Virus record (IMG/VR): IMGVR_UViG_3300046007_002916
Location: 1-44,118 of that record
Source of the DNA: a virus
DNA length: 44,118 nucleotides
Direction: 5' to 3' (one strand)
A program made the position numbers and the translations under genes. Position 1 is the stretch's first letter. The number at the start of each line of letters is the position of its first letter. Shown here one piece after another: positions 1 to 44,118 of the stretch. The notes under the pieces were generated by a model. That model ran no database searches, had not been told where the DNA came from, and worked only from the letters and a program-made list of their open reading frames with translations.

Positions 1-212
1 CTTTCCACAGGAGGACGGCAAGTGAGCAAGAAGAAACCAAAGACGATTGATGCTTCCTGCCCCGTTACGTTGATGGGGTGCGAAGGAGAAGTGATCGTAG
101 AGATGACTCCGACCGAGGCAGTTTCGATGCTCGAAAAGGCATGGCAGGAAAACAAGCGACTGCGGCAGGAGAACGCAACCCTCACCGCCGAGCGCGACGA
201 GGCGAGGCGGGA
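1..212. repeat. Contig-end redundancy, left copy
   Basis: The first 212 bases reappear at 43905-44116 with two differences (positions 133 and 148 here are G, T in the right copy). The overlap lies inside a gene between the replication and virion modules, not at the late/early junction where T7-like genomes carry their physical ends. It is best read as assembly overlap of a circularly closed contig, so roughly 43,904 bases are unique. Confidence 0.85.
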
Positions 213-309
213 GTTATGCCACGAAATATTCACCAACGGTGGACTGCGACCAAGCGAATACGCGAGACATCGTTGCTGGGATTGCTACAAGGCGGACGAC
301 AATGCCTGA
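22..309 (+). CDS. Small coiled-coil phage protein (95 aa), unknown function
   Basis: This is a 95-residue protein of unknown function. Translation starts at a GTG with a perfect AGGAGG at 9-14, seven bases upstream. Residues ~38-65 (leucine, glutamate and arginine rich, ending TAERDEARR) should form a coiled coil; the C-terminal part contains a CWDCYK motif. The TAERDEARRxxC segment and the W-C-tail recur in the 72-residue protein at 43711-43929, immediately upstream once the contig is closed, so the two are probably tandem duplicates. Its stop overlaps the start of the next gene, indicating co-translation. No catalytic motif is visible. Confidence 0.8.
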   Translation: MSKKKPKTIDASCPVTLMGCEGEVIVEMTPTEAVSMLEKAWQENKRLRQENATLTAERDEARRELCHEIFTNGGLRPSEYARHRCWDCYKADDNA

Positions 310-25792: not shown

Positions 25793-26039
25793 GGTTTAGG
25801 CGCAAAGTTGCGAAGTGGTATATCGGGGGTGCTTCCGCCAGGTTCCCCCCGGGCCGGCATCGCGCCCGCCCACGCGCCCGGATCCGCGCACGTTCCGCCA
25901 CCAAACGACACGCCGCCGCGCCACGTGCCGCACGAACACGCTAGACGTTCCCGCACGACCACGGGATCAAACATCCGGTGCGTGTGTCACGCCCGTCATG
26001 CGTGAGGGGTGAGGCGAAGACGCTGGGGAAATTGAAACG
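25793..26039 (+). other. Non-coding GC-rich spacer
   Basis: This stretch between the HExxH gene and the terminator is very GC-rich with many CG dinucleotides (around 25855-25930). Open frames here lack ribosome-binding sites and show no protein-like composition. No repeat or promoter was identified. It may contain part of the terminal repeat of the packaged genome. Confidence 0.4.
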
Positions 26040-26076
26040 ATGCCTACATTTGATTGTAGGCATTTCGCATTTTTTG
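26040..26076 (+). terminator. Terminator at late/early boundary
   Basis: ATGCCTACA (26040-26048) pairs perfectly with TGTAGGCAT (26055-26063) around TTTGAT, followed by TTCGCATTTTTT. The run of six T begins seven bases after the stem, so the fit to an intrinsic terminator is good but not ideal. It would stop late transcripts just before the early promoter. Confidence 0.75.
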
Positions 26077-26087
26077 GAGATTGACTA

Positions 26088-26116
26088 TTGCAGGATCGGA
26101 ATAGTGGCGATATAGT
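26088..26116 (+). promoter_or_regulatory. Host sigma70-type early promoter
   Basis: TTGCAG (26088-26093) and TATAGT (26111-26116) are separated by exactly 17 bp. Transcription would start at about 26121-26123, the first base of a stem-loop. The position matches T7's A1-A3 promoters: after the genome-end region and before the first early genes. A TTGACT seven bases upstream of the chosen -35 would give a 24-bp spacer and is rejected. Confidence 0.75.
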
Positions 26117-26120
26117 GATG

Positions 26121-26145
26121 GTGTCGCGGGCGTAATCCGCGACAC
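26121..26145 (+). promoter_or_regulatory. 5'-terminal stem-loop of early transcript, loop GCGTAAT
   Basis: GTGTCGCGG (26121-26129) pairs with CCGCGACAC (26137-26145) around GCGTAAT. The same 7-base loop caps stem I of three of the four ribozymes downstream, one base differing in the fourth. The hairpin begins at the predicted transcription start but has no ribozyme core around it. It therefore imitates the 5' end that ribozyme cleavage would give every other early mRNA. Its stem sequence is unrelated to the ribozyme stems, so the loop is what is conserved. Confidence 0.75.
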
Positions 26146-26172
26146 GCACAACGCAAGAAAGTAGGAACCACA

Positions 26173-26271: not shown

Positions 26272-26295
26272 CCGTCAACCGAAAGTAGGAACACA

Positions 26296-26763: not shown

Positions 26764-26822
26764 GCCCGAAACCGCCTACGGGCGGTCCGTCCGGAGCGTA
26801 ATTCCGGATGCTGATGATGGGC
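26764..26822 (+). ncRNA. Type II hammerhead-like ribozyme, copy 1
   Basis: Elements in order: GCCC (26764-26767, stem II), GAA (26768-26770), stem III ACCGCC/GGCGGT (26771-26776, 26781-26786) capped by TACG (a UNCG tetraloop), C17 at 26787, stem I (26788-26795 with 26803-26810) capped by GCGTAAT, CTGATGA (26811-26817), one extra T, GGGC (26819-26822, stem II). The predicted cut is between 26787 and 26788. It lies between the acidic gene and the next early gene, and the upstream product would end in the stem III hairpin. The extra base before stem II departs from the standard core. Confidence 0.85.
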
Positions 26823-26854
26823 AGACACTCCATTACCGAAAGTAGGATTTCGCA

Positions 26855-27199
26855 ATGCCACAGATGGATATTGAAATCAAGGGTTCACGGATCATCGTCA
26901 ACGGCGTCCCCGTTCGAATCCCCCAGCGCGCAACGCTTGACGAGTCCGACCTCAAGCGCGGCGAGGTTTGCTTCTTCTTCTTGGATTCCTACGTCACCCT
27001 GCGATTCCGACCGGAGCCGCCATCGTCCAATTGTGGGACGTTTGCGCTGACGGTCGAAGCAGCGCACCCGGAGATGGAGGAAATCGAAGCGACTCTCCCG
27101 ATGCTTGCTTGCGAATTCTTGGAGGGGACCGGGGACGCCAGGCTTTCCCGATTCCTGCGGGCGGTGTGTGCGCCCGTCCGGAAGGGAGGATCCCGCTAA
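26855..27199 (+). CDS. Early protein of unknown function (114 aa)
   Basis: The ATG at 26855 is preceded by CGAAAGTAGGATTTCGCA, the common early leader. The 114-residue product begins with beta-type sequence (MDIEIKGSRIIVNGVPVRIP), continues with CFFFLDSYVTLRFRPEP, and ends with a helical basic part (FLEGTGDARLSRFLRAVCAPVRKGG). No known motif is seen. It should be the first gene on the mRNA released by ribozyme 1, with a 5' stem-loop about 45 bases before the start codon. Its stop overlaps the next ATG. Confidence 0.75.
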   Translation: MPQMDIEIKGSRIIVNGVPVRIPQRATLDESDLKRGEVCFFFLDSYVTLRFRPEPPSSNCGTFALTVEAAHPEMEEIEATLPMLACEFLEGTGDARLSRFLRAVCAPVRKGGSR

Positions 27200-27489
27200 T
27201 GCAATTCTTCCACGCTCACCTGGCTACCCCGAACTTCGATTTCGATGGCTACGGCGAAACCCCGGAACACGCGGCGGGGGCTTTGATTGAATCCCTACGT
27301 CTTCACGGCAAGGGATACAAACTTCCCGCATCATGGTATTTCCAATTCCTTCCGGATGCCGTGGTACGGGAAATCCGCACCAATGAACCGTATCGGGACG
27401 GGGAGCGAATCAATACCGTTTCCCCGTGGAATGGCGCGAACAATTCTAATGGGCGCATCCTGCGTACCGGGCGTGTCGTTTGGGATTGA
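27199..27489 (+). CDS. Early conserved phage protein (96 aa)
   Basis: The ATG at 27199 overlaps the preceding stop (TAATG) and has GGAGGA upstream. The 96-residue protein begins MQFFHAHLATPNFDFDGYGETPEHAAGALIESLRLHG, which resembles small proteins recalled from other phages; YRDGERI appears later. Its first ~40 residues suggest a strand-helix unit. Function is unknown. It is translationally coupled to its upstream neighbour, and ribozyme 2 begins 13 bases after its stop. Confidence 0.75.
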   Translation: MQFFHAHLATPNFDFDGYGETPEHAAGALIESLRLHGKGYKLPASWYFQFLPDAVVREIRTNEPYRDGERINTVSPWNGANNSNGRILRTGRVVWD

Positions 27490-27501
27490 TTCATCGCCGC
27501 C

Positions 27502-27560
27502 GCCCGAAACCGGCTAGCGCCGGTCCGCCAGGAGCGTAATTCCCGGCGCTGACGATGGGC
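27502..27560 (+). ncRNA. Type II hammerhead-like ribozyme, copy 2
   Basis: GCCC (27502-27505), GAA (27506-27508), stem III ACCGGC/GCCGGT (27509-27514, 27519-27524) with loop TAGC, C17 at 27525, stem I (27526-27533 with 27541-27548, one A-C mismatch) with loop GCGTAAT (27534-27540), CTGACGA (27549-27555), extra T, GGGC (27557-27560). The C at position 7 of the core, where copies 1 and 4 have T, is the one position that is free to vary in hammerheads. The predicted cut is between 27525 and 27526. Confidence 0.85.
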
Positions 27561-27587
27561 AGACTCCCGAGCTTGAAAGGTATCCCG

Positions 27588-28094
27588 ATGAAAGTCTCCG
27601 AATTCAATTCCATCCATCCTCTCGCGGCGGCGGTGCGTGTGCAACTGGGGCGAAATTCGATTCCCGAAACGCTCCAAATCCTGGCCGACGTTCGCCGTGG
27701 TGGTGCCGATGCCGGGTTTAGTGGGTTCTGCTACTACGCCGATACCCTGGATTTCGCCAAGCGTAACCGTGGCGCGATTGTGGAATCCCTGATTTCCGAC
27801 GCGGATGATTTGGGGGAGGGGAAGGGGATTTCCGGTGCGGTGCGTGTCGTCAAGGGGTTCCGGTGCGTTGAAGGGGTATCCGAGGATTCCATATTGGCGG
27901 TGCTACTTCCGTCCTACTCCCGGACGCCGGTGCGAAGCTCCGAGGGATCCCGAAAGCGCCGAGAGGGGGGCGGACGTTCCCGTCAATTTTTCCCAGCATG
28001 GGCGGACCAGGACGAATGCGACACGGTGCTAAACGGGCTTGCTTGGTACGCCCTGGAAACCGTTGCCCATGCGGCGGAATCTTTGCGGGACTAA
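27588..28094 (+). CDS. Early conserved phage protein (168 aa)
   Basis: The ATG at 27588 is preceded by TTGAAAGGTATCCCG, a variant of the shared leader. The 168-residue product contains GFSGFCYYADTLDFAKRNRGAIVESLISDADDLG (residues ~43-76), a stretch typical of a family of phage proteins of unknown function (DUF7222-like by recollection), then a Ser/Arg-rich linker (~108-130) and a C-terminal segment with NGLAWYALETVAHAAE. No catalytic motif is evident. It is the first gene on the mRNA that ribozyme 2 would release. Confidence 0.75.
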   Translation: MKVSEFNSIHPLAAAVRVQLGRNSIPETLQILADVRRGGADAGFSGFCYYADTLDFAKRNRGAIVESLISDADDLGEGKGISGAVRVVKGFRCVEGVSEDSILAVLLPSYSRTPVRSSEGSRKRREGGGRSRQFFPAWADQDECDTVLNGLAWYALETVAHAAESLRD

Positions 28095-28133
28095 CCGTCT
28101 CGATGTCGATACACTCCCCAAATAGGAACAACT

Positions 28134-28379
28134 ATGCGCCGCACCACCTACACCGTTTCCGATTCCATTTCCCGCATCGTCCGATTGGTTGACGCTGGAT
28201 CCTGGCGAACGTCCCGCGTGTCCGCGTACCGGATCATTTCGGAATGCCAGGAGCTCACCGACGGGGATTCCGTTTCCCTGCTGACGGATGCCGAGCGTTC
28301 CTGGTTGACCGGCGCCGTTGTCTGGGTTTCCGAATCGTTGGAGGATGCTGCACGTGGGGAAGGGATCTACATGGATTGA
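28134..28379 (+). CDS. Early protein of unknown function (81 aa)
   Basis: The ATG at 28134 follows AATAGGAACAACT, a reduced form of the early leader, with no ribozyme in the 39-base gap before it. The 81-residue product (MRRTTYTVSDSISRIVRLVDAGSWRTSRVSAYRIISECQ...) has a basic N-terminal half and acidic C-terminal half (SESLEDAARGEGIYMD) and is probably helical. It shares an mRNA with the preceding gene. No family is recognised. Confidence 0.7.
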   Translation: MRRTTYTVSDSISRIVRLVDAGSWRTSRVSAYRIISECQELTDGDSVSLLTDAERSWLTGAVVWVSESLEDAARGEGIYMD

Positions 28380-28384
28380 CCGCC

Positions 28385-28444
28385 GCCCGAAACCGGCCTA
28401 GTGCCGGTCTAGCCCGAGCGTAATTCGGGCTACTGACGATGGGC
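28385..28444 (+). ncRNA. Type II hammerhead-like ribozyme, copy 3
   Basis: GCCC (28385-28388), GAA (28389-28391), stem III ACCGGC/GCCGGT (28392-28397, 28403-28408) with loop CTAGT, C17 at 28409, a perfect 8-bp stem I (28410-28417 with 28425-28432) with loop GCGTAAT (28418-28424), CTGACGA (28433-28439), extra T, GGGC (28441-28444). Stem I differs from copy 1 at several pairs on both strands, a clear covariation. The predicted cut is between 28409 and 28410, and the element begins six bases after the upstream stop. Confidence 0.88.
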
Positions 28445-28475
28445 AGAATTCCCAGGATTGAAAGTAGGAAATCGA

Positions 28476-29144
28476 ATGTCTCTCACTCACTCCACCGTCT
28501 TTATTCCGGTCGCCACCCCGATTCATAAGGCTTGTGCGCCCGATGCCGGTCGCCGATTCTCTTTCCAGGACGCCGCGGCGTACGTCACGGCGGAATCGAA
28601 GTGTCTCCTGGCCGCTACCGATGGCCGTATGGCCGCGTATGTCCCTTTCCTTACCCATGATCCGAAAGACCGTGGTGCCGATGCCGATGCAATTCGCTTG
28701 ATTCCCGCGGCTGCGTTGAAGGCTTTGAAGAGGCGCGCAAAGGGCCCCGTTCCGGTGGTTCATATGAATGGAACGGCGTCTATTCCCGGCGGAGCCTCTT
28801 TCCCTCTTTCGGACATGGAAACGTTCCCGCCGATGGCCGATGTTCTCCCGAATGCCGCGAAGCTCAAGGATACGGTGGTCGTTACGTTGAATCCCGAGCT
28901 CCTGGCCCGCTTGGCAGAGGCGCTGGGGAGCGCCAATTCCGTGACGATTGTGGCGGACCGTGAGGGGAAGAATCCGTTGGTAGTCATTCCTGGGGAAGAG
29001 GCGCCGTGCGATGCGGTTGGTCTGCTTATGCCGCTCGCGTTTGCAAAGGGACGCGACGATAGGGCCGAGGCGCTCCGCCGTACGGCGAATGCCCGCGCCA
29101 TTATCGAAGAGACTGAAACGCGCAAGCGCCGCGCTGGCAAGTAA
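28476..29144 (+). CDS. DNA sliding clamp-like protein (222 aa)
   Basis: The ATG at 28476 is preceded by TTGAAAGTAGGAAATCGA. The 222-residue protein has the rhythm of DnaN clamp domains: CLLAATDGRMAAYVPF (residues ~46-61), IPAAALKALKRRAKGPVPVVHMNG, DMETFPPMADVLPNA (compare clamp FPDY..VIP), a VTLNPELLARLAEALG helix and a strand ending NPLVVIPG. Only about two of the three DnaN domains fit in this length. A clamp could aid the phage polymerase, which lacks obvious thioredoxin partner evidence here, or act as a decoy for host clamp-binding proteins. The basic C-terminal tail (ETRKRRAGK) is unusual for clamps. Confidence 0.65.
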   Translation: MSLTHSTVFIPVATPIHKACAPDAGRRFSFQDAAAYVTAESKCLLAATDGRMAAYVPFLTHDPKDRGADADAIRLIPAAALKALKRRAKGPVPVVHMNGTASIPGGASFPLSDMETFPPMADVLPNAAKLKDTVVVTLNPELLARLAEALGSANSVTIVADREGKNPLVVIPGEEAPCDAVGLLMPLAFAKGRDDRAEALRRTANARAIIEETETRKRRAGK

Positions 29145-29149
29145 CCGCC

Positions 29150-29217
29150 GCCCGAAACGGCCCGGGGTTTCCCGGCGCCGTCCCAGTGGAGCGTGATTCC
29201 ACTAGCTGATGATGGGC
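29150..29217 (+). ncRNA. Type II hammerhead-like ribozyme, copy 4
   Basis: GCCC (29150-29153), GAA (29154-29156), stem III outer ACGGC/GCCGT (29157-29161, 29177-29181) extended by CCGGG/CCCGG (29162-29166, 29171-29175) with loop GTTT and a bulged C, C17 at 29182, stem I (29183-29190 with 29198-29205, one C-A mismatch) with loop GCGTGAT, CTGATGA (29206-29212), extra T, GGGC (29214-29217). The longer stem III is outside the conserved core. The predicted cut is between 29182 and 29183. Confidence 0.83.
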
Positions 29218-29375: not shown

Positions 29376-29397
29376 AGTAGGATTCCATCTGCCTACT
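29376..29397 (+). promoter_or_regulatory. Hairpin containing sense and antisense leader-like sequence
   Basis: AGTAGG (29376-29381) pairs with CCTACT (29392-29397) across a 10-base loop. AGTAGGATT matches the early ribosome-binding leader, and CCTACTTTCG (29392-29401) is its antisense. No start codon follows at the normal distance, so this is not an active leader for a recognised gene. Confidence 0.45.
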
Positions 29398-29401
29398 TTC
29401 G

Positions 29402-29440
29402 CCCCCTCCCTGGAATTACGCTCCGGGTCGAGGGGGTTTT
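29402..29440 (+). terminator. Early-operon terminator with loop ATTACGC
   Basis: CCCCCTC (29402-29408) pairs with GAGGGGG (29430-29436), followed by TTTT. The stem continues inside as CCTGGA/TCCGGG (29409-29414, 29422-29427) with a 7-base loop ATTACGC (29415-29421). This loop is the exact reverse complement of the GCGTAAT loops of the early 5' hairpins, and GGAATTACGCTCC is the exact reverse complement of ribozyme 1's loop and adjoining stem. It ends the early unit. Confidence 0.85.
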
Positions 29441-29456
29441 CATCAATTCCCGTCCG

Positions 29457-29519
29457 TTTCCGGATCCGGAAAAACTTTCAGGATTTCCCATTGACAAGTG
29501 TTCCGAAATGAGGACACTT
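29457..29519 (+). promoter_or_regulatory. Palindrome and dyad upstream of the regulator/integrase genes
   Basis: TTTCCGGATCCGGAAA (29457-29472) is a perfect 16-bp palindrome. Downstream, TTGACA (29491-29496), a consensus -35 box, overlaps a dyad AAGTGTTCC/GGACACTT (29496-29504, 29512-29519). No good -10 box is found at 16-18 bp, so promoter activity is uncertain. The layout looks like an operator region; the MarR-like protein at 30368 is a possible ligand. Confidence 0.4.
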
Positions 29520-29527
29520 CCCTCTAG

Positions 29528-30223: not shown

Positions 30224-30726
30224 TGCGTTTGCTTATCTCCTCTGTGTCACTAAAGTGGATACATTTCGATTTTGAGACAGCCAAAGCCGGGGTTTATTAC
30301 CTGAACTTCGGTAGGCGGTGGGACTTCTTCATTGACATTCGTCCATCACGTTGGTACAACCGTTTCCATGAGAACGCCTGTCTCGCGGATGATGGATGCC
30401 TTCAAGATTCTCCGGACGGTGGATCCGGAGATGCAGCTGCTCTATGCGGCGGTCTTCCTCGAGATTGCCTCCAGGCACCCGAAGCCGTGTCCGATGGCGG
30501 ACCTCGGTCCGATGTTCGGGGTATCCCGGGCGACCATCAGCCGGATCCATGTCTATCTGTCTCACCATGTCATCAAGACAACGGTGGACAAGCGGGCGGG
30601 GCACGGGTTGATTCGTGCGGCGGAGAATGCGGAGAACCGGAGTCACCTGGATCTCACGCTCACGGCCAAGGGCAAGACGATGTACGAACAGGTGCAGGCT
30701 GCTCTCGAAAGGAAGTGACTGTATGA
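30223..30726 (+). pseudogene. Possible disrupted gene running into the regulator gene
   Basis: An ATG at 30223 overlaps the preceding stop as TGATG. The first ~45 residues look like real protein (MRLLISSVSLKWIHFDFETAKAG, VYYLNFGRRWDFFIDIRPSRW). After about 30365 the frame continues under the MarR-like gene with low-complexity Gly/Asp/Pro composition typical of a shadow frame. It may be the 5' remnant of a gene cut by acquisition of the regulator, or a short gene with an out-of-frame end. The full 167-residue product is unlikely to be functional. Confidence 0.35.
30368..30718 (+). CDS. MarR-like winged-helix regulator (116 aa)
   Basis: The 116-residue protein has a helical N-terminus (MQLLYAAVFLEIASRHPKPCPMADL), a helix-turn-helix at residues ~43-62 (MADLGPMFGVSRATISRIHV), a wing, and a C-terminal LTLTAKGKTMYEQVQAALER that is typical of MarR proteins. 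The ATG at 30368 is favoured; a TTG twelve codons upstream is possible. Its position before the integrase suggests control of integration or of the RNA polymerase. Dyads at 29496-29519 and 31964-31981 are candidate operators. A phage-specific role is inferred. Confidence 0.75.
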   Translation: MRTPVSRMMDAFKILRTVDPEMQLLYAAVFLEIASRHPKPCPMADLGPMFGVSRATISRIHVYLSHHVIKTTVDKRAGHGLIRAAENAENRSHLDLTLTAKGKTMYEQVQAALERK

Positions 30727-31772
30727 AGATCACCAAGCGGGGCAGTTCATGGCAGGCTTCGGTGATCCAGGACGGGAAGCGCACCCGCTACTCGTTCAAG
30801 ACGGAGCAGGAAGCCCGTGTCTGGGCGGCAGAGGCAGAGCTTGCGATGGTCAAGGGCGTCTCCGTGCCGACCCGTGGGGATTCCACGGGGACTGGCGGCA
30901 AGACCCTCATGGAGCTATATCGGATCACGCATGAGACGAGATGGTCGGCTTGCTGGAGCGATGCCATGACCATCTTGGGGAACACGGTGGTCCGTGAGCT
31001 CGGTCCGGATACCGATGTCTCCGACATTGGGTTCTCCACAATCTCGTCGTGGGTTGGCACCCTCCGCACCAAGGCACTCTCGCAGTCCACGGTGAACCGG
31101 CGTCTTGCTGCGTTGAGCACCATGCTCGGGACGGCGGTCAACCTCGGGTGGATCCGGGAGAAGCCGAAGATCCCGATGGGCAAGGAAGCCCGTAGGGAGC
31201 GCCGGTATCTCACGCATGAGGAAGAGGAAACGATCCTTTCTCAACTCAAGGGCACCCGCGAGTGGGGCCTGGCAGTCGTTGCTGCCGATACTGGGCTCCG
31301 TCTTTCCGAGCTTCTCAACCTTCGGTGGCGGAGCGTCCGCAATGACTTCGTGACCGTTGAGAAGTCCAAGAACGGGAGTCCCCGGACTATTCCCCTTTCT
31401 TCCCGGTCCCGTGGGGTGATCGCTGGGATCCCCAGGGACAAGGCGGGTCCCTTTGCCGGCATGGATCGGTTTGAGACGAGCCGGCGGTTCAAGCGGGCTA
31501 TCGTGGCTGCTGGCATCACCGACGATGCGGTCGTCTTCCATTCCCTTCGCCATACCTGCGCCTCGCGGTTGGTGATGATGGGGGTGGACATCATGCGGGT
31601 GCGTCAATGGATGGGCCACAAGAGCATCGCTACGACGATGATCTACGCCCACCTGGCACCCGATTCACTATCGGACGTTGTGGCAAAGATTGACGCCTGC
31701 ACAAGAGAAAAACTCTTGTGCGAAAGTCGTGCCACAATCTGTGGCAAACTGCCACAGTCAGAGGCATCGTGA
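30723..31772 (+). CDS. int: Tyrosine recombinase, phage integrase
   Basis: The start MKITKRGSSWQASV at 30723 follows GAAAGGAAGTGACTGT; the frame open upstream is low complexity. The 349-residue protein has an N-terminal arm-binding region with ...KRTRYSFKTEQEARVWAAEAE, a core-binding domain (~60-160), and a catalytic domain with Arg193 (DTGLRLSELL), His273/Arg276 (HSLRHT), His299 (MGHKS) and Tyr308 (MIYAHL). All five classic residues are in place. It should integrate the phage at a host tRNA-Leu gene matching the att core 24 bases downstream. Integrases at this place are known in T7-like phages of cyanobacteria and SAR11. Its 3' end carries a stem-loop and the first of the TGTGGCA repeats. 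Confidence 0.95.
   Translation: MKITKRGSSWQASVIQDGKRTRYSFKTEQEARVWAAEAELAMVKGVSVPTRGDSTGTGGKTLMELYRITHETRWSACWSDAMTILGNTVVRELGPDTDVSDIGFSTISSWVGTLRTKALSQSTVNRRLAALSTMLGTAVNLGWIREKPKIPMGKEARRERRYLTHEEEETILSQLKGTREWGLAVVAADTGLRLSELLNLRWRSVRNDFVTVEKSKNGSPRTIPLSSRSRGVIAGIPRDKAGPFAGMDRFETSRRFKRAIVAAGITDDAVVFHSLRHTCASRLVMMGVDIMRVRQWMGHKSIATTMIYAHLAPDSLSDVVAKIDACTREKLLCESRATICGKLPQSEAS
31679..31757. repeat. Cluster of TGTGGCA repeats and a hairpin by the att site
   Basis: TGTGGCA occurs directly at 31679-31685 and 31740-31746 and inverted (TGCCACA) at 31730-31736 and 31750-31756. Between them lies a perfect 9-bp hairpin, GCACAAGAG/CTCTTGTGC (31699-31707, 31713-31721) with loop AAAAA. The cluster lies inside the end of the integrase gene, just before the att core, so it may bind integrase or an excision factor. 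Confidence 0.55.
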
Positions 31773-32047: not shown

Positions 32048-34462
32048 ATGGGACGCGGCATTAGCCAGCATGAGCTCGATCAAGAGGGGTTCGAGCGGGG
32101 ACGCAAGCGGTACTACAAGTCGGTCCGTCGGGCGATGGATGCGGGAGCGGAATCGTCCACCAACTGGGGAAGCCGGATGGTGGAGTCGGCCATCCTGCCC
32201 ATGTCGATCCGCTTGAAGGACGCGATGGAGACCGATAAGGGGGTCGGGGCTGTCCTGCTTCGGCAGCTTGACATGGACCCGAAGGTCATGGCGATGCTTG
32301 CGTTTCAGTCCCTCCTAGACGGGTCGGCCAAGGGCAAGACGTTTACCCGGGGATGCATTGAGACCGCCCGGGTAGTCCAGCATGAGGCAATGGCGTCCAT
32401 GCTCAAGGAGGTGGACGAGCGCCGGTTCGACCGCTTCAAGCTCTACACCGCCGGGCGGGGGTACAAGAACTGCCTCAAGAACTTCAAGAAGATGCTGAAG
32501 CACACGAATCCGGAGATCGTGGAGAAGTACGCCTGGAGCGACGAGGAAGCCATCAAGGCCGGCTATGTGCTGGCAATGGTGGCCATCGAAACCACGGGTC
32601 TCCTCGAGCGGATCGTTTACCAGAAGACTCGGCGAATGTCGGTGTCCACCTTGGTCCTCACCAAGGATGCCTGGGAGTACATCCACAAGTCGATGAAGAA
32701 GTCGGAGGCGCTGTACCCCATCAAGCTCCCGATGGTTGTGCCCCCGCGCAAGTGGGTGGACCCGGACAACGGTGGCTACGAGCAGGGGTTTGGCGATCCG
32801 TTGGTGCGCGGGGCAACCAAGGTAGCCAAGGCTTCCCATACCAAGGAGGCGATGCCGCTTGTGTATGACGCCATCAACATCATCCAGCACACCCCGTTCC
32901 GGGTGAACAAGGAAGTACTTGACGTTGCCTTGAAGGTCTTTGAGGACCGTATCTCCATTGGCGATCTTGATGTTCACGAAGAGCGGGTGCTTCCGGTCGC
33001 CCCTCCGGAACTCCAACTGGAATACAAGTGCAGGACCGAGGAGCAGTACCGCACGGTGCGCCTGTTCTTCTTGGATTGCTCCCGCGTTGCCGAGTTCAAC
33101 CGCAGGATCAACAGCCGCCGGATCACGGTCTCGCAGACCATCAGCCTGGCCCGTCGCTTTGCGGAGGAGCAGGACCTCCGGTTCTTCCATGCCGCTGCCC
33201 TTGACTTCCGTGGACGGTTCTACTGTCAAGCAACCGGGCTTTCCCACCAAGGGAGTGACCTTCAGCGTGGTCTGATTGAGTTCGGACTCGGTCACGTAGT
33301 TCCCCACAATTCCGAAGCCATGCACTCTTGGCTTCGCCACGGTGCTGCGGTGCTGGGGAAGAAGGGGACGCTTGAGGAACGGGCCAACGCCATGTCCGCC
33401 ATCATCCGTAGCGGAGAGGCGGAGGCCATTGCCAAGGATCCCGCTGGCACGATCTCCTTGTGGGGCAAGGCCGACGAGCCGTTCTCCTACCTTGCCTGGT
33501 GTCTTGACGTTCGCAACGTCCGTGCCGGCAAGCCATCTCATCTCATGGTTGCCGTGGACGGGAGCTGCAACGGGATCCAAGTCCTCTCGCTCCTGCTCCG
33601 TGACGAGGTGGGTGCTGCTGCCGTCAACCTGATCCCGTCATCCAAACCGAACGACATCTACCAGATGGTCGCGGACCGCACCATGCAGCGCATCGAAGAG
33701 GCGGTCGCTCGAGGCGAGTCGTACGCCGAAGGTTGGAAGAAGATTGGGGTGAGCCGCAGCATGGTGAAGCGGCCCGTCATGTGCCTGCCGTACAGCATCT
33801 CGATGCGGTCAGCCATGATGTACCTCAAGGAGGCGTACATGGAGTACCACCGGGATGGGCCGTGGAGTGATCCGTCAATTCCCTGCGGGTTCCTCATCAA
33901 GAAGGTATGGCCGTCGATCCAGGAAATCGTGGTGAAGGGGACCCAGTTCCTTGCTTGGGCGCGGGCCGCGGGAAGCATCATCACCAACCAGGGGATTCAC
34001 CCGGTTTGGGTGACGCCCGACGGCTTCACCGTCCAGCAGTCCTACTTCTCCTACGAACCGAGCCGGGTCCGGACAACCTTGGGCAAGGAAGCCCACATCT
34101 GGCAGATCCGGAAGGAAACCGCAAGGATCAACCGCAGGAAGCACTCCGCCGGTCTTGTCCCGAACCTGGTGCACAGCCTTGACGCAACCGCAGCGCGGGA
34201 AACCGCAAGGCGGTTGCACAAGGCAAACATCCCGGACATGGCGTTCGTCCATGACTCGTACCTCTGTCACGCCGCATTCCACCCGCAGCTTGCCAAGGAA
34301 CTCCGTGAGGCGTGGATCACCACCTTCTCTGGTGACCCGCTGCGGGATTGGGTGCGGCAGATTGAAGCGCAGCTCCCGAAGGGTGTTGTGCTGCCCCCAC
34401 CCCCTGAGTACGGGAACCTTGACATCAATGTCATCCGTGAATCTCGGTATTTCTTCTCGTAA
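32048..34462 (+). CDS. T7-type single-subunit DNA-directed RNA polymerase
   Basis: The 804-residue enzyme transcribes middle and late genes from phage promoters. Motif A is MVAVDGSCNGIQ with catalytic Asp504, motif B is SRSMVKRPVMCLPYS with Lys574, and motif C is AFVHDSYLCHA with Asp736. The N-terminal domain is shorter than in T7 (883 aa), as in other T7-like phages outside the coliphages. The ATG has AAAGGTGG just upstream. It is the first gene after the att site, so integration would separate it from or join it to host sequence. The enzyme defines the phage group. Confidence 0.98.
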   Translation: MGRGISQHELDQEGFERGRKRYYKSVRRAMDAGAESSTNWGSRMVESAILPMSIRLKDAMETDKGVGAVLLRQLDMDPKVMAMLAFQSLLDGSAKGKTFTRGCIETARVVQHEAMASMLKEVDERRFDRFKLYTAGRGYKNCLKNFKKMLKHTNPEIVEKYAWSDEEAIKAGYVLAMVAIETTGLLERIVYQKTRRMSVSTLVLTKDAWEYIHKSMKKSEALYPIKLPMVVPPRKWVDPDNGGYEQGFGDPLVRGATKVAKASHTKEAMPLVYDAINIIQHTPFRVNKEVLDVALKVFEDRISIGDLDVHEERVLPVAPPELQLEYKCRTEEQYRTVRLFFLDCSRVAEFNRRINSRRITVSQTISLARRFAEEQDLRFFHAAALDFRGRFYCQATGLSHQGSDLQRGLIEFGLGHVVPHNSEAMHSWLRHGAAVLGKKGTLEERANAMSAIIRSGEAEAIAKDPAGTISLWGKADEPFSYLAWCLDVRNVRAGKPSHLMVAVDGSCNGIQVLSLLLRDEVGAAAVNLIPSSKPNDIYQMVADRTMQRIEEAVARGESYAEGWKKIGVSRSMVKRPVMCLPYSISMRSAMMYLKEAYMEYHRDGPWSDPSIPCGFLIKKVWPSIQEIVVKGTQFLAWARAAGSIITNQGIHPVWVTPDGFTVQQSYFSYEPSRVRTTLGKEAHIWQIRKETARINRRKHSAGLVPNLVHSLDATAARETARRLHKANIPDMAFVHDSYLCHAAFHPQLAKELREAWITTFSGDPLRDWVRQIEAQLPKGVVLPPPPEYGNLDINVIRESRYFFS

Positions 34463-34529: not shown

Positions 34530-35159
34530 ATGCGTAAGGCAAATCAGAACGTGACCACTCCGGTCGGAACCCTCCAGTACCCGTCTCTCATTGAGGCGGA
34601 CACCCGATTTAACCCGGAGGGGATGTTCAAGACGAACATCGTCATCCCCGCCGGTGATGCGGCAGACAAGTTTGAAGAGGTCCTTGAGAACGCCCGCCTC
34701 TCTGCCATCGAGGAGGAGAAGGCAAAGAGCGGCGGGAAGAAGATCAAGGTGAACACCTCGGTTCCCTTTGAGCGTGACGACAGCAACAACCTGGTCGTGA
34801 AGGCAAAGCTGCCCGCCCGCGTGGAGACGAAGACGGGCAAGTCGTGGCAGCAGCGTCCCGCTCTGTTCGACTCCAAGGGTCAGAAGCTTGTCACCGACGG
34901 GATGCGGGTGGGCAGCGGTACTCGGGCGCGTGTCTCCATTGAGATCGCCCCGTACAACGTCCCCGCAACCGGGGCCGGCATCAGCCTCCGCCTGCGTGGG
35001 GTGCAGATCATTGAGCTGCGGGAGCCCTCTGGCGGTCGCGCCGAGGACTTCGGCTTCGGTGCCGAGGCGACCGGCTACGTGGCGGAGTCCTTTGACAACT
35101 TTGAGGACGACGCGAAGCCGGTCAGCAAGGCAGAACCCAAGCGGGCCCAGGACTTCTGA
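34530..35159 (+). CDS. Single-stranded DNA-binding protein, T7 gp2.5-like
   Basis: This 209-residue protein resembles gp2.5-type SSBs of T7-like phages: N-terminal MRKANQNVTTPVGTLQYPSLIEADTRFNPEGMFKTNIVIP, an OB-fold centre (SGTRARVSIEIAPYNVP, ISLRLRGVQIIEL) and an acidic C-terminal region (FDNFEDDAKP) ending in Phe. The terminal Phe and acidic tail in gp2.5 contact polymerase and primase-helicase. Its stop overlaps the next ATG (TGATG), so the two are co-translated. Confidence 0.92.
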   Translation: MRKANQNVTTPVGTLQYPSLIEADTRFNPEGMFKTNIVIPAGDAADKFEEVLENARLSAIEEEKAKSGGKKIKVNTSVPFERDDSNNLVVKAKLPARVETKTGKSWQQRPALFDSKGQKLVTDGMRVGSGTRARVSIEIAPYNVPATGAGISLRLRGVQIIELREPSGGRAEDFGFGAEATGYVAESFDNFEDDAKPVSKAEPKRAQDF

Positions 35160-35968
35160 TGAATCAGTTCTTGATTCAAGGCCCAGCAATCATCTCGTTC
35201 AGCGGTGGACGAACGAGCGGATACATGCTTCGCCAGGTATTAGATGCTCATGGCGGAACTCTCCCAGAAGACGTCAAGGTTGTCTTCTGCAACACAGGCC
35301 GTGAGCATCCCGCTACCTACGACTTCGTTGACCAAGTGTCTCGATCATGGAACTGTTCCGTGGTGTGGGTTGAGTGGGTTCCCGAGAAGCCGTTCGTGAA
35401 GGTAGTGGATTCCACGACCGCTGACCGCGACGGTTCGGTGTTTGCTCGGTTGATTGAGAAGCGGAAATACCTACCCAATCCCATCACTCGGTTCTGTACC
35501 AGCGAGATGAAGGTGCTTGCCGTTCGTCGGTATGCGACTTCAGTCCTTGGGTGGGATGCCTGGACTACTGCCGTTGGGATCCGTGCTGATGAACCACGCC
35601 GGGTGGCAAAGATCAAGGATCACGGGGACGAGATCAAGGTCTGCCCGCTGGCCCGTGCTGGAGTAACCGTAGATGACGTCAATGCGTTCTGGAAGAGCGC
35701 CCCATTCGACCTCGCGTTCCCGTCCGGTGACAACTCCGCTGGCAATTGCTTTGGTTGCTTCCTGAAGAGCAGGAAGACTCTGGAGCGGCTAATTGCACAG
35801 GACCCGGAGCGGATGGCGTGGTGGATTGCGATGGAAGACAAGATTGGGGCCAAGTTCCGTAAGGACATCCCGACGTACAAGCAGCTCGTCCAGCAGGTGT
35901 CGATTCAGGGAGTGTTGTTCCAGGGGCCGGATACGGAGGGCATCGCTTGCGGTGCTTGTACTGACTAA
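35159..35968 (+). CDS. PAPS reductase-like ATP pyrophosphatase family protein
   Basis: The 269-residue protein has the PP-loop FSGGRTSG (Ser15-Gly21) that binds the phosphates of ATP in the adenine-nucleotide alpha-hydrolase fold. Family features include VVFCNTGREHPATYDFV, PITRFCTSEMKV (Cys at the position often binding metal in CysH/DndC proteins), NCFGCFLKS and a C-terminal CGACTD. Phage members are usually annotated as PAPS reductases; related enzymes act in sulfate activation or DNA phosphorothioation. Five clustered Cys suggest a metal or Fe-S site. The biological substrate in phage is not known. It is coupled to SSB. Confidence 0.85.
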   Translation: MNQFLIQGPAIISFSGGRTSGYMLRQVLDAHGGTLPEDVKVVFCNTGREHPATYDFVDQVSRSWNCSVVWVEWVPEKPFVKVVDSTTADRDGSVFARLIEKRKYLPNPITRFCTSEMKVLAVRRYATSVLGWDAWTTAVGIRADEPRRVAKIKDHGDEIKVCPLARAGVTVDDVNAFWKSAPFDLAFPSGDNSAGNCFGCFLKSRKTLERLIAQDPERMAWWIAMEDKIGAKFRKDIPTYKQLVQQVSIQGVLFQGPDTEGIACGACTD

Positions 35969-43721: not shown

Positions 43722-43929
43722 CATCGTCAACCTGCTGAGGAAGAACAGCGAATGCCTCGCGCCGTCGATCATGCTTGAGGCGGCAGACACCATCGAACGC
43801 CTTACCGCCGAGCGCGACGAGGCAAGGCGGATGTATTGCGGGCGGGTATCCCGCGATGTGCAACCTGATGCGTTTGATATTGCGAAGAATCACGGTTGGA
43901 ACTGCTTTCCACAGGAGGACGGCAAGTGA
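43711..43929 (+). CDS. Small coiled-coil phage protein (72 aa)
   Basis: The ATG at 43711 has AAGGAG seven bases upstream. The 72-residue product (MAADIVNLLRKNSECLAPSIMLEAADTIERLTAERDEARRMYC..., ending NHGWNCFPQEDGK) contains the TAERDEARRxxC stretch shared at DNA level with the gene at 22-309, so the pair is a probable tandem duplication with diverged ends. The Trp-x-Cys-Phe tail parallels WDCYK there. Similar short proteins are frequent in phages but unassigned. Confidence 0.7.
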   Translation: MAADIVNLLRKNSECLAPSIMLEAADTIERLTAERDEARRMYCGRVSRDVQPDAFDIAKNHGWNCFPQEDGK

Positions 43930-44116
43930 GCAAGAAGAAACCAAAGACGATTGATGCTTCCTGCCCCGTTACGTTGATGGGGTGCGAAGGAGAAGTGATC
44001 GTAGAGATGACTCCGACCGAGGCAGTTTCGATGCTCTAAAAGGCATGGCAGTAAAACAAGCGACTGCGGCAGGAGAACGCAACCCTCACCGCCGAGCGCG
44101 ACGAGGCGAGGCGGGA
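43905..44116. repeat. Contig-end redundancy, right copy
   Basis: These bases repeat 1-212 with G-to-T changes at 44037 and 44052; the last two bases (44117-44118) also differ. The pattern fits lower-quality sequence at the end of a circular contig rather than biological terminal repeats. Confidence 0.85.
43926..44039 (+). pseudogene. Truncated second copy of the gene at 22-309
   Basis: The GTG at 43926 corresponds to that at 22. The G-to-T change at 44037 turns codon 38 (GAA) into TAA; the second change at 44052 turns codon 43 (GAA) into TAA as well. The intact version at the left end is the gene to use. The nonsense changes are most likely sequencing errors at the contig edge. Confidence 0.7.
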
Positions 44117-44118
44117 TC

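Follow-up and report, generated by a model that had tools for sequence, protein, structure and literature searches.

Type II hammerhead-like ribozymes between the early genes of a T7-like phage, flanked by a leader hairpin and a complementary 3' hairpin

Four hammerhead-like elements between early genes

The window analysed here is the whole of the IMG/VR virus record IMGVR_UViG_3300046007_002916 (positions 1 to 44,118; 44,118 nucleotides), which carries T7-type structural, packaging and replication genes and, in what is probably its early operon, four intergenic segments resembling type II hammerhead ribozymes. The operon probably spans about 26.12-29.44 kb and is probably transcribed by the host RNA polymerase. 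Its eight open reading frames (ORFs) are divided by the four segments into groups of 2, 2, 2, 1 and 1 genes, and the array belongs to a defined unit that has a promoter-like site and a leader hairpin at one end and a terminator-like hairpin at the other (Table 1).

The four segments were first noticed in an initial annotation made from the sequence alone. Its positions for the segments and for the C17 residues after which cleavage is expected (Table 1) are correct, and so is its reading of stem III, where the fifth pair is C-G in copies 1 and 4 and G-C in copies 2 and 3, and the third pair is G-C in copy 4 only. All four segments match the pattern GAAAC..GTC..CTGANGANGGGC exactly, against 0.01 matches expected in the window; none of 100 shuffled sequences reached four. 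Their closeness to stop codons is likewise borne out: every copy begins 5-12 nucleotides past a stop codon and stands ahead of a Shine-Dalgarno sequence.

Each copy reads GCCC-GAAAC-stem III-GUC-stem I-CUGANGA-U-GGGC. The catalytic core (C3UGANGA9 / G12AAA / GUC, with A15.1-U16.1 and UH at the cleavage site) is intact in all four copies in the window and in 17 of 17 distinct copies from the clade. The three-stem layout is there as well: stems I and III are hairpins, and stem II joins the two ends and pairs in every copy. The minimum free energy (MFE) fold of copies 1, 3 and 4 is the hammerhead. The stem I loop of copies 1-3 differs from that of copy 4, which reads GCGTGAT.

The pairing of GCCC with GGGC in stem II means that the U following A9 must be an extra, unpaired nucleotide, a point absent from the initial annotation. 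The G10.1-C11.1 pair, which is the most conserved pair of stem II (quasi-conserved, not essential), is present, but the U intervenes after A9 in all four copies. We read it as an insertion because one copy in a closely related contig (L056, 5145-5214, CTGATGAGGGC) has none. Pattern scans, which are not an unbiased census, gave 27 distinct viral type II hammerheads with GCCC/GGGC stem II and an extra U after A9, 2 with an extra G, and 23 with no extra base. A single additional nucleotide between A9 and G10.1 is also found in the plus-strand hammerhead of Chrysanthemum chlorotic mottle viroid, but this is a viroid ribozyme and the additional base is A10; the insertion is tolerated there, and swapping it to U raised trans-cleavage 3-4 fold (PMC3705267). 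Even a U10.1-U11.1 mismatch has been reported active (PMC3088659).

A search with hammerhead II models was among the checks proposed in the initial annotation. When the 3.2-kb array region alone was searched, Rfam family RF02276 (Hammerhead_II) was reported at all four copies, at 36.6, 33.7, 31.2 and 25.3 bits for copies 1-4, with E-values that are significant for copies 1-3 (Table 1); no other Rfam family was reported there. The copies share with RF02276 the core, the order of elements, an open stem II, hairpin stems I and III, and the GUC cleavage triplet, and depart from it in the additional U that separates A9 from stem II, in the 4-bp GCCC/GGGC stem II, in having no evident pseudoknot between loop I and the tails, and in scoring just under the gathering cut-off. 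This score is 37 bits, a curator's cut-off and no defining property of the ribozyme, and the shortfall would fit the extra base and a stem II unlike that of the family. The assignment to RF02276 stands, given the E-values and the covariation within the clade.

Covariation in related phages

A search of IMG/VR with the phage RNA polymerase gave 19 loci. A covariance model (R1) was made of 17 distinct copies, the window's own included; it gave scores of 84-89 bits to the four copies in the window and, with E below 1e-15, 29 matches in the 19 loci, some of these copies being part of the model. Covariation of the stems had been noted among the four copies in the window, and it is strong for stems I and III across the 17 distinct copies from the window and its relatives. 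In these stems 99.3% of cells are paired (79.5% in shuffles), 54 cells show double changes (17.5 in shuffles), and 8 pairs have changes on both sides; 0 of 500 shuffles match the observed covariation. The covariation score is 0.506 versus 0.127 in shuffles and at most 0.106 in slides, and shifting the partner columns by 1-3 positions abolishes the signal.

The early polycistronic mRNA of T7 is cut at intergenic sites by RNase III, and the location and general role of the elements described here match those sites. It might be thought that these are also RNase III-processed elements with a chance resemblance to hammerheads, but chance is ruled out by the core together with the covariation, and stems I and III are short hairpins, unlike the long substrates of RNase III; this explanation is exceedingly improbable. 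What the two systems appear to share is the cutting of early mRNA between the genes of a T7-like phage, predicted here to be done by a cis-acting RNA in place of a host protein.

The hammerhead assignment has several points to contend with. With Rfam's curated threshold there are zero matches in the window, all four copies being under the gathering score. Stem II is invariant within the clade, and its covariation neither backs nor opposes the pairing. Stem I of copy 2 has an A-C mismatch and the minimum-energy fold of this copy is not the hammerhead, two points absent from the initial annotation; copy 2 may misfold. By inspection, no complementarity of at least 4 bases was found between the GCGTAAT loop and the tails, and a loop I-tail pseudoknot is not evident, although another tertiary contact between loop I and stem II is possible. 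Such a pseudoknot is found in the majority of type II hammerheads, and in one tested case high speed required it (PMC3088659); because none is evident here, the speed of cleavage at cellular Mg2+ is uncertain. On balance, the four elements are very likely hammerhead ribozymes.

A leader hairpin and a complementary 3' element

The new part of the present analysis is the surroundings of the array, namely a matching leader hairpin and a complementary 3' hairpin, both missed in the initial annotation. The order after the early promoter-like site is GTGTCGCGG-GCGTAAT-CCGCGACAC, then GAAAGTAGG, then ATG. The leader hairpin is no ribozyme; its loop, GCGTAAT, is identical to the hammerhead stem I loop. 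The Shine-Dalgarno sequence GAAAGTAGG occurs on the plus strand of the window at four sites only, each ahead of an early gene (Table 1). In relatives, the same place as the promoter-like site is occupied by a sigma-70-like promoter, TTGACG-17-TACCAT or TACAGT. Their leaders keep the loop, AGCGTAA or GCGTAAT, together with GAAAGTAGG on differing stems; having been gathered by requiring both motifs, they show that a leader lies just after a promoter-like -10 element in each, not that the motifs are invariant. The automatic promoter scan did not list the promoter-like site of the window.

The 3' element, CCTACTTTC-GCCCCCTCCCTGGA-ATTACGC-TCCGGGTCGAGGGGGT, follows the last small ORF. The end of the operon holds exact complements, 9 and 7 nucleotides long and conserved, to its own leaders, the one in CCTACTTTC and the other in the hairpin loop (Table 1). 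A scan requiring ATTACGC alone recovered the element in 13 of the 13 relatives that cover the region, with CCTACTTTC each time, and always past the last ORF and before the next operon. The full pattern was found in 14 contigs of IMG/VR, all 14 of which also carry hammerheads. In seven distinct versions of the element the stem varies with pairing kept, and ATTACGC and CCTACTTTC are invariant. In the relatives and in the window alike, an ORF of 30-35 amino acids with a single hydrophobic segment always directly precedes the 3' hairpin.

The loops of the hammerheads themselves show a further regularity. Wherever an array has two or more copies (12 of 12 such arrays), GCGTAAT is the loop of the upstream copies, and the last copy before the 3' element has a different one (GCGTGAT, GTGTGAT, GCGTCAT or GCGCAT); the 12 arrays are related, and independent events are few. 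The divergent loop would weaken pairing within the last piece, leaving the 3' element free for the other pieces.

Proposed processing of the early mRNA

We propose that each ribozyme would fold as the RNA is made and cut after C17, splitting the early transcript into units of one or two genes. The upstream unit would close with the stem III hairpin, carrying a 2',3'-cyclic phosphate, and the downstream one would have a 5'-OH and open with the stem I hairpin, its Shine-Dalgarno sequence coming next. Because a cut after C17 makes stem I the 5' end of what lies downstream, the downstream pieces would start like the primary transcript; in other words, cleavage would recreate a promoter-type 5' leader on each of them, and with the shared GCGTAAT loop all cistrons would receive similar leaders. 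The initial annotation's suggestion that type II hammerheads cut the early polycistronic mRNA is well supported by the family match, core, covariation and position, the cleavage itself being predicted. That the ribozymes partition the early mRNA we consider quite probable.

A second part of the proposal concerns the 3' element. The 3' end of the last unit would bind the leaders in trans, by loop-loop contact and by pairing with the Shine-Dalgarno sequence, and, thus bound, would damp early translation or shorten the life of the mRNA, acting as a feedback element. The complementarity makes such antisense feedback on the early leaders a plausible but tentative idea, somewhat short of an even prospect. 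We put forward, with the same reserve, a feedback circuit free of protein, in which ribozymes would create both the regulator and its targets: the promoter-type leaders made by cleavage, and the antisense 3' hairpin of the last cistron that a ribozyme sets free.

There are arguments against the feedback part. Only 4 of the 8 early genes have the exact GAAAGTAGG. Ranking leaders by duplex energy with the anti-Shine-Dalgarno stretch was tried and rejected, as it does not single out the early genes, because G-rich leaders score equally through the CCCCC run. The T-run after the 3' hairpin is weak, and the automatic terminator scan did not list the hairpin. Finally, the leader loop and its complement never co-vary, and no covariation is visible between them.

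In the most ordinary account, mRNA is processed by the ribozymes, but the loop common to stem I and the leader does not work together with the 3' hairpin that complements it: the shared loop would be kept only for tertiary contacts of the ribozyme, and the 3' hairpin would be an inverted leftover leader turned terminator. Arrays that have no such 3' element are common, and distant phage hammerheads also have a loop I of the form CGT(N)A, which suggests that ribozyme folding alone can conserve the loop. On the other hand, the same loop is kept in the promoter-proximal hairpin, which is no ribozyme, and ATTACGC is invariant while the surrounding stem changes, where drift would be expected in a terminator loop that had no use. 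We give this account, which concerns the feedback part only (partitioning being common to both readings), very nearly an even chance.

The 3' element can also be read on the minus strand, as a leader hairpin followed by GAAAGTAGG, and some relatives have an ATG at the usual spacing after it. A leftward transcript, begun beyond the element, might then use the GCGTAAT hairpin and GAAAGTAGG to lead a leftward gene or a long antisense RNA across the early operon, for example in lysogeny. This we hold to be unlikely: three relatives (L056, L058 and L065) have no start codon at normal distance, the plus-strand fold is the better of the two in seven of the seven distinct versions (clearly so in two, owing to U-G pairs), and it is on the plus strand that the small ORF preceding the element is conserved. 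A leftward gene with its start at the 3' element was considered and rejected, its start codons not being conserved.

Still less likely, indeed very improbable, is that a phage regulator recognising GCGTAAT binds the repeated hairpins, as DNA or as RNA, with the hammerhead-like fold secondary or inactive. The loop is indeed placed at the promoter start, at every intergenic site and at the operon end, and DNA sites that work in either orientation would account for the inverted copy, but the full catalytic core at every intergenic site is far more than a hairpin site needs, and the spacing from the loop to GAAAGTAGG varies among the places.

Genome context

By its single-subunit RNA polymerase and T7-type module order, with head-tail adaptor, tail and internal virion proteins identified, the phage is T7-like (Autographiviridae-like). 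The polymerase gene is downstream of the array, and a tyrosine integrase gene lies between it and the early genes (Table 1), as in Pseudomonas phage LUZ100; the phage is probably a temperate T7-like phage. The ends of the window (1-214 and 43905-44118) overlap by 214 bases at 98% identity, and for this reason the contig is probably an almost complete genome, cut open at an arbitrary point.

The 222-amino-acid early protein (ORF 7) had no match in Pfam, PDB or the phage collection, and its structure model is unusable (mean pLDDT 35.8). Past the 3' hairpin, at 29490-29520, TTGACAAGTGTTCCGAAATGAGGACACTT combines a -35-like hexamer with the inverted repeat GTGTTCC..GGACAC over which it lies; this is possibly an operator for the next operon. 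A gene similar to phosphoadenosine phosphosulfate reductase is found among the replication genes (35159-35968; phrog_424, E 9e-53).

Table 1. Features of the putative early operon and nearby genes (aa, amino acids; R1, covariance model of 17 distinct copies)
Feature	Position	Strand	Remarks
Terminator-like hairpin	26039-26064		ahead of the early promoter-like site
Early promoter-like site TTGCAG-17-TATAGT	26088-26116	+	host sigma-70 type, predicted from sequence
Leader hairpin GTGTCGCGG-GCGTAAT-CCGCGACAC	26121-26145	+	at predicted transcript start; hammerhead stem I loop; MFE z = -3.9
Shine-Dalgarno GAAAGTAGG of first early gene	26157-26165	+	further copies at 26281, 26838 and 28460
Early ORF, 152 aa	26296-26754	+	upstream of ribozyme copy 1; no family found
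Type II hammerhead copy 1	26764-26822	+	predicted cleavage after C26787; RF02276 E 4.4e-5; R1 85 bits; MFE fold is the hammerhead
Early ORFs 3 and 4	26855-27199 and 27199-27489	+	between copies 1 and 2; no family found
Type II hammerhead copy 2	27502-27560	+	predicted cleavage after C27525; RF02276 E 2.5e-4; R1 83.7 bits; stem I A-C mismatch, alternative MFE fold
Early ORFs 5 and 6	27588-28094 and 28134-28379	+	between copies 2 and 3; no confident family
Type II hammerhead copy 3	28385-28444	+	predicted cleavage after C28409; RF02276 E 1.1e-3; R1 88.8 bits; MFE fold is the hammerhead
Early ORF 7, 222 aa	28476-29144	+	kept across the clade at 42-86% identity
Type II hammerhead copy 4	29150-29217	+	predicted cleavage after C29182; RF02276 E 0.04; R1 86.5 bits; loop GCGTGAT
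Small ORF, 35 aa	29251-29358	+	a single hydrophobic segment, probably membrane; relatives have ORFs alike in size and character
CCTACTTTC	29392-29400	+	exact complement of early Shine-Dalgarno GAAAGTAGG; kept in every relative covering the region
Terminator-like 3' hairpin	29401-29437	+	loop ATTACGC at 29415-29421, exact complement of leader/stem I loop GCGTAAT; MFE z = -4.1 (29400-29445)
Tyrosine integrase gene	30615-31772		between early genes and RNA polymerase gene
Single-subunit RNA polymerase gene	32048-34462		phrog_414, E 3e-182

Related arrays and earlier work

A hammerhead array in a phage is of a known kind. Perreault et al. 2011 (PMC3088659) described hammerheads clustered about single genes or small blocks of genes in prophages, proposed that they partition mRNA, and demonstrated in vitro cleavage for three arrays. 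Their arrays (Clostridium scindens, Azorhizobium caulinodans and Agrobacterium tumefaciens) likewise have several hammerheads flanking genes in phage DNA; the present one is distinguished by the T7-like clade, the defined early operon, the stem I loop that equals the loop of the promoter leader, and the complementary 3' hairpin.

Our scan of viral sequences for the pattern with U after A9 gave at least 119 stretches, and the same hammerhead pattern was found in 14 bacterial contigs. Multi-copy viral contigs include two with 11 and 9 hammerheads (L126 and L177, respectively). Nine such contigs (L126, L177, L132, L138, L121, L140, L185, L175 and L217) have 4 to 11 type II hammerheads each, spaced by a few hundred to about 2,000 bases and mostly past stop codons, and most of these arrays are longer than any in the window's clade. 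In seven searched viral contigs, 25 copies pass Rfam's own cut-off. The pair of leader and complement, when sought in other hammerhead arrays, gave background-like matches only.

No hammerheads were detected, by motif or by model, in six characterised T7-like phages whose RNA polymerase is about 30% identical (best model E 0.04), and an Rfam run on three of the six returned tRNAs only. There was no DNA-similarity match to the array among GenBank phages, nor any paper on such arrays in Autographiviridae among the literature searched. The initial annotation put the array forward as new among described T7-like phages, a claim that has to be made narrower. Arrays, carried by many viral contigs, and the idea of mRNA processing are not new, both having been published in 2011, but no description appears to exist of their presence in a clade of T7-like phages with an integrase.

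For the 3' element, the closest likeness is to OppZ and CarZ of Vibrio cholerae, autoregulatory small RNAs from the 3' end of an operon, which pair with their own transcript and inhibit translation (PMC7398697). In the window, too, the 3' end of the operon complements its own leaders. OppZ and CarZ are released by RNase E (PMC7398697), whereas the 3' RNA of the phage would be released by a ribozyme.

Conclusions

The purpose of bacterial and phage hammerheads was left open in 2011, and the surroundings of the array offer a concrete and testable answer: the ribozyme would equip the genes of a single operon with uniform leaders, and a matching antisense end would be part of that same operon. If this is true, self-cleaving RNAs and small-RNA feedback are joined in one system, and a T7-like phage could tune its early genes with neither RNase III nor a repressor protein.

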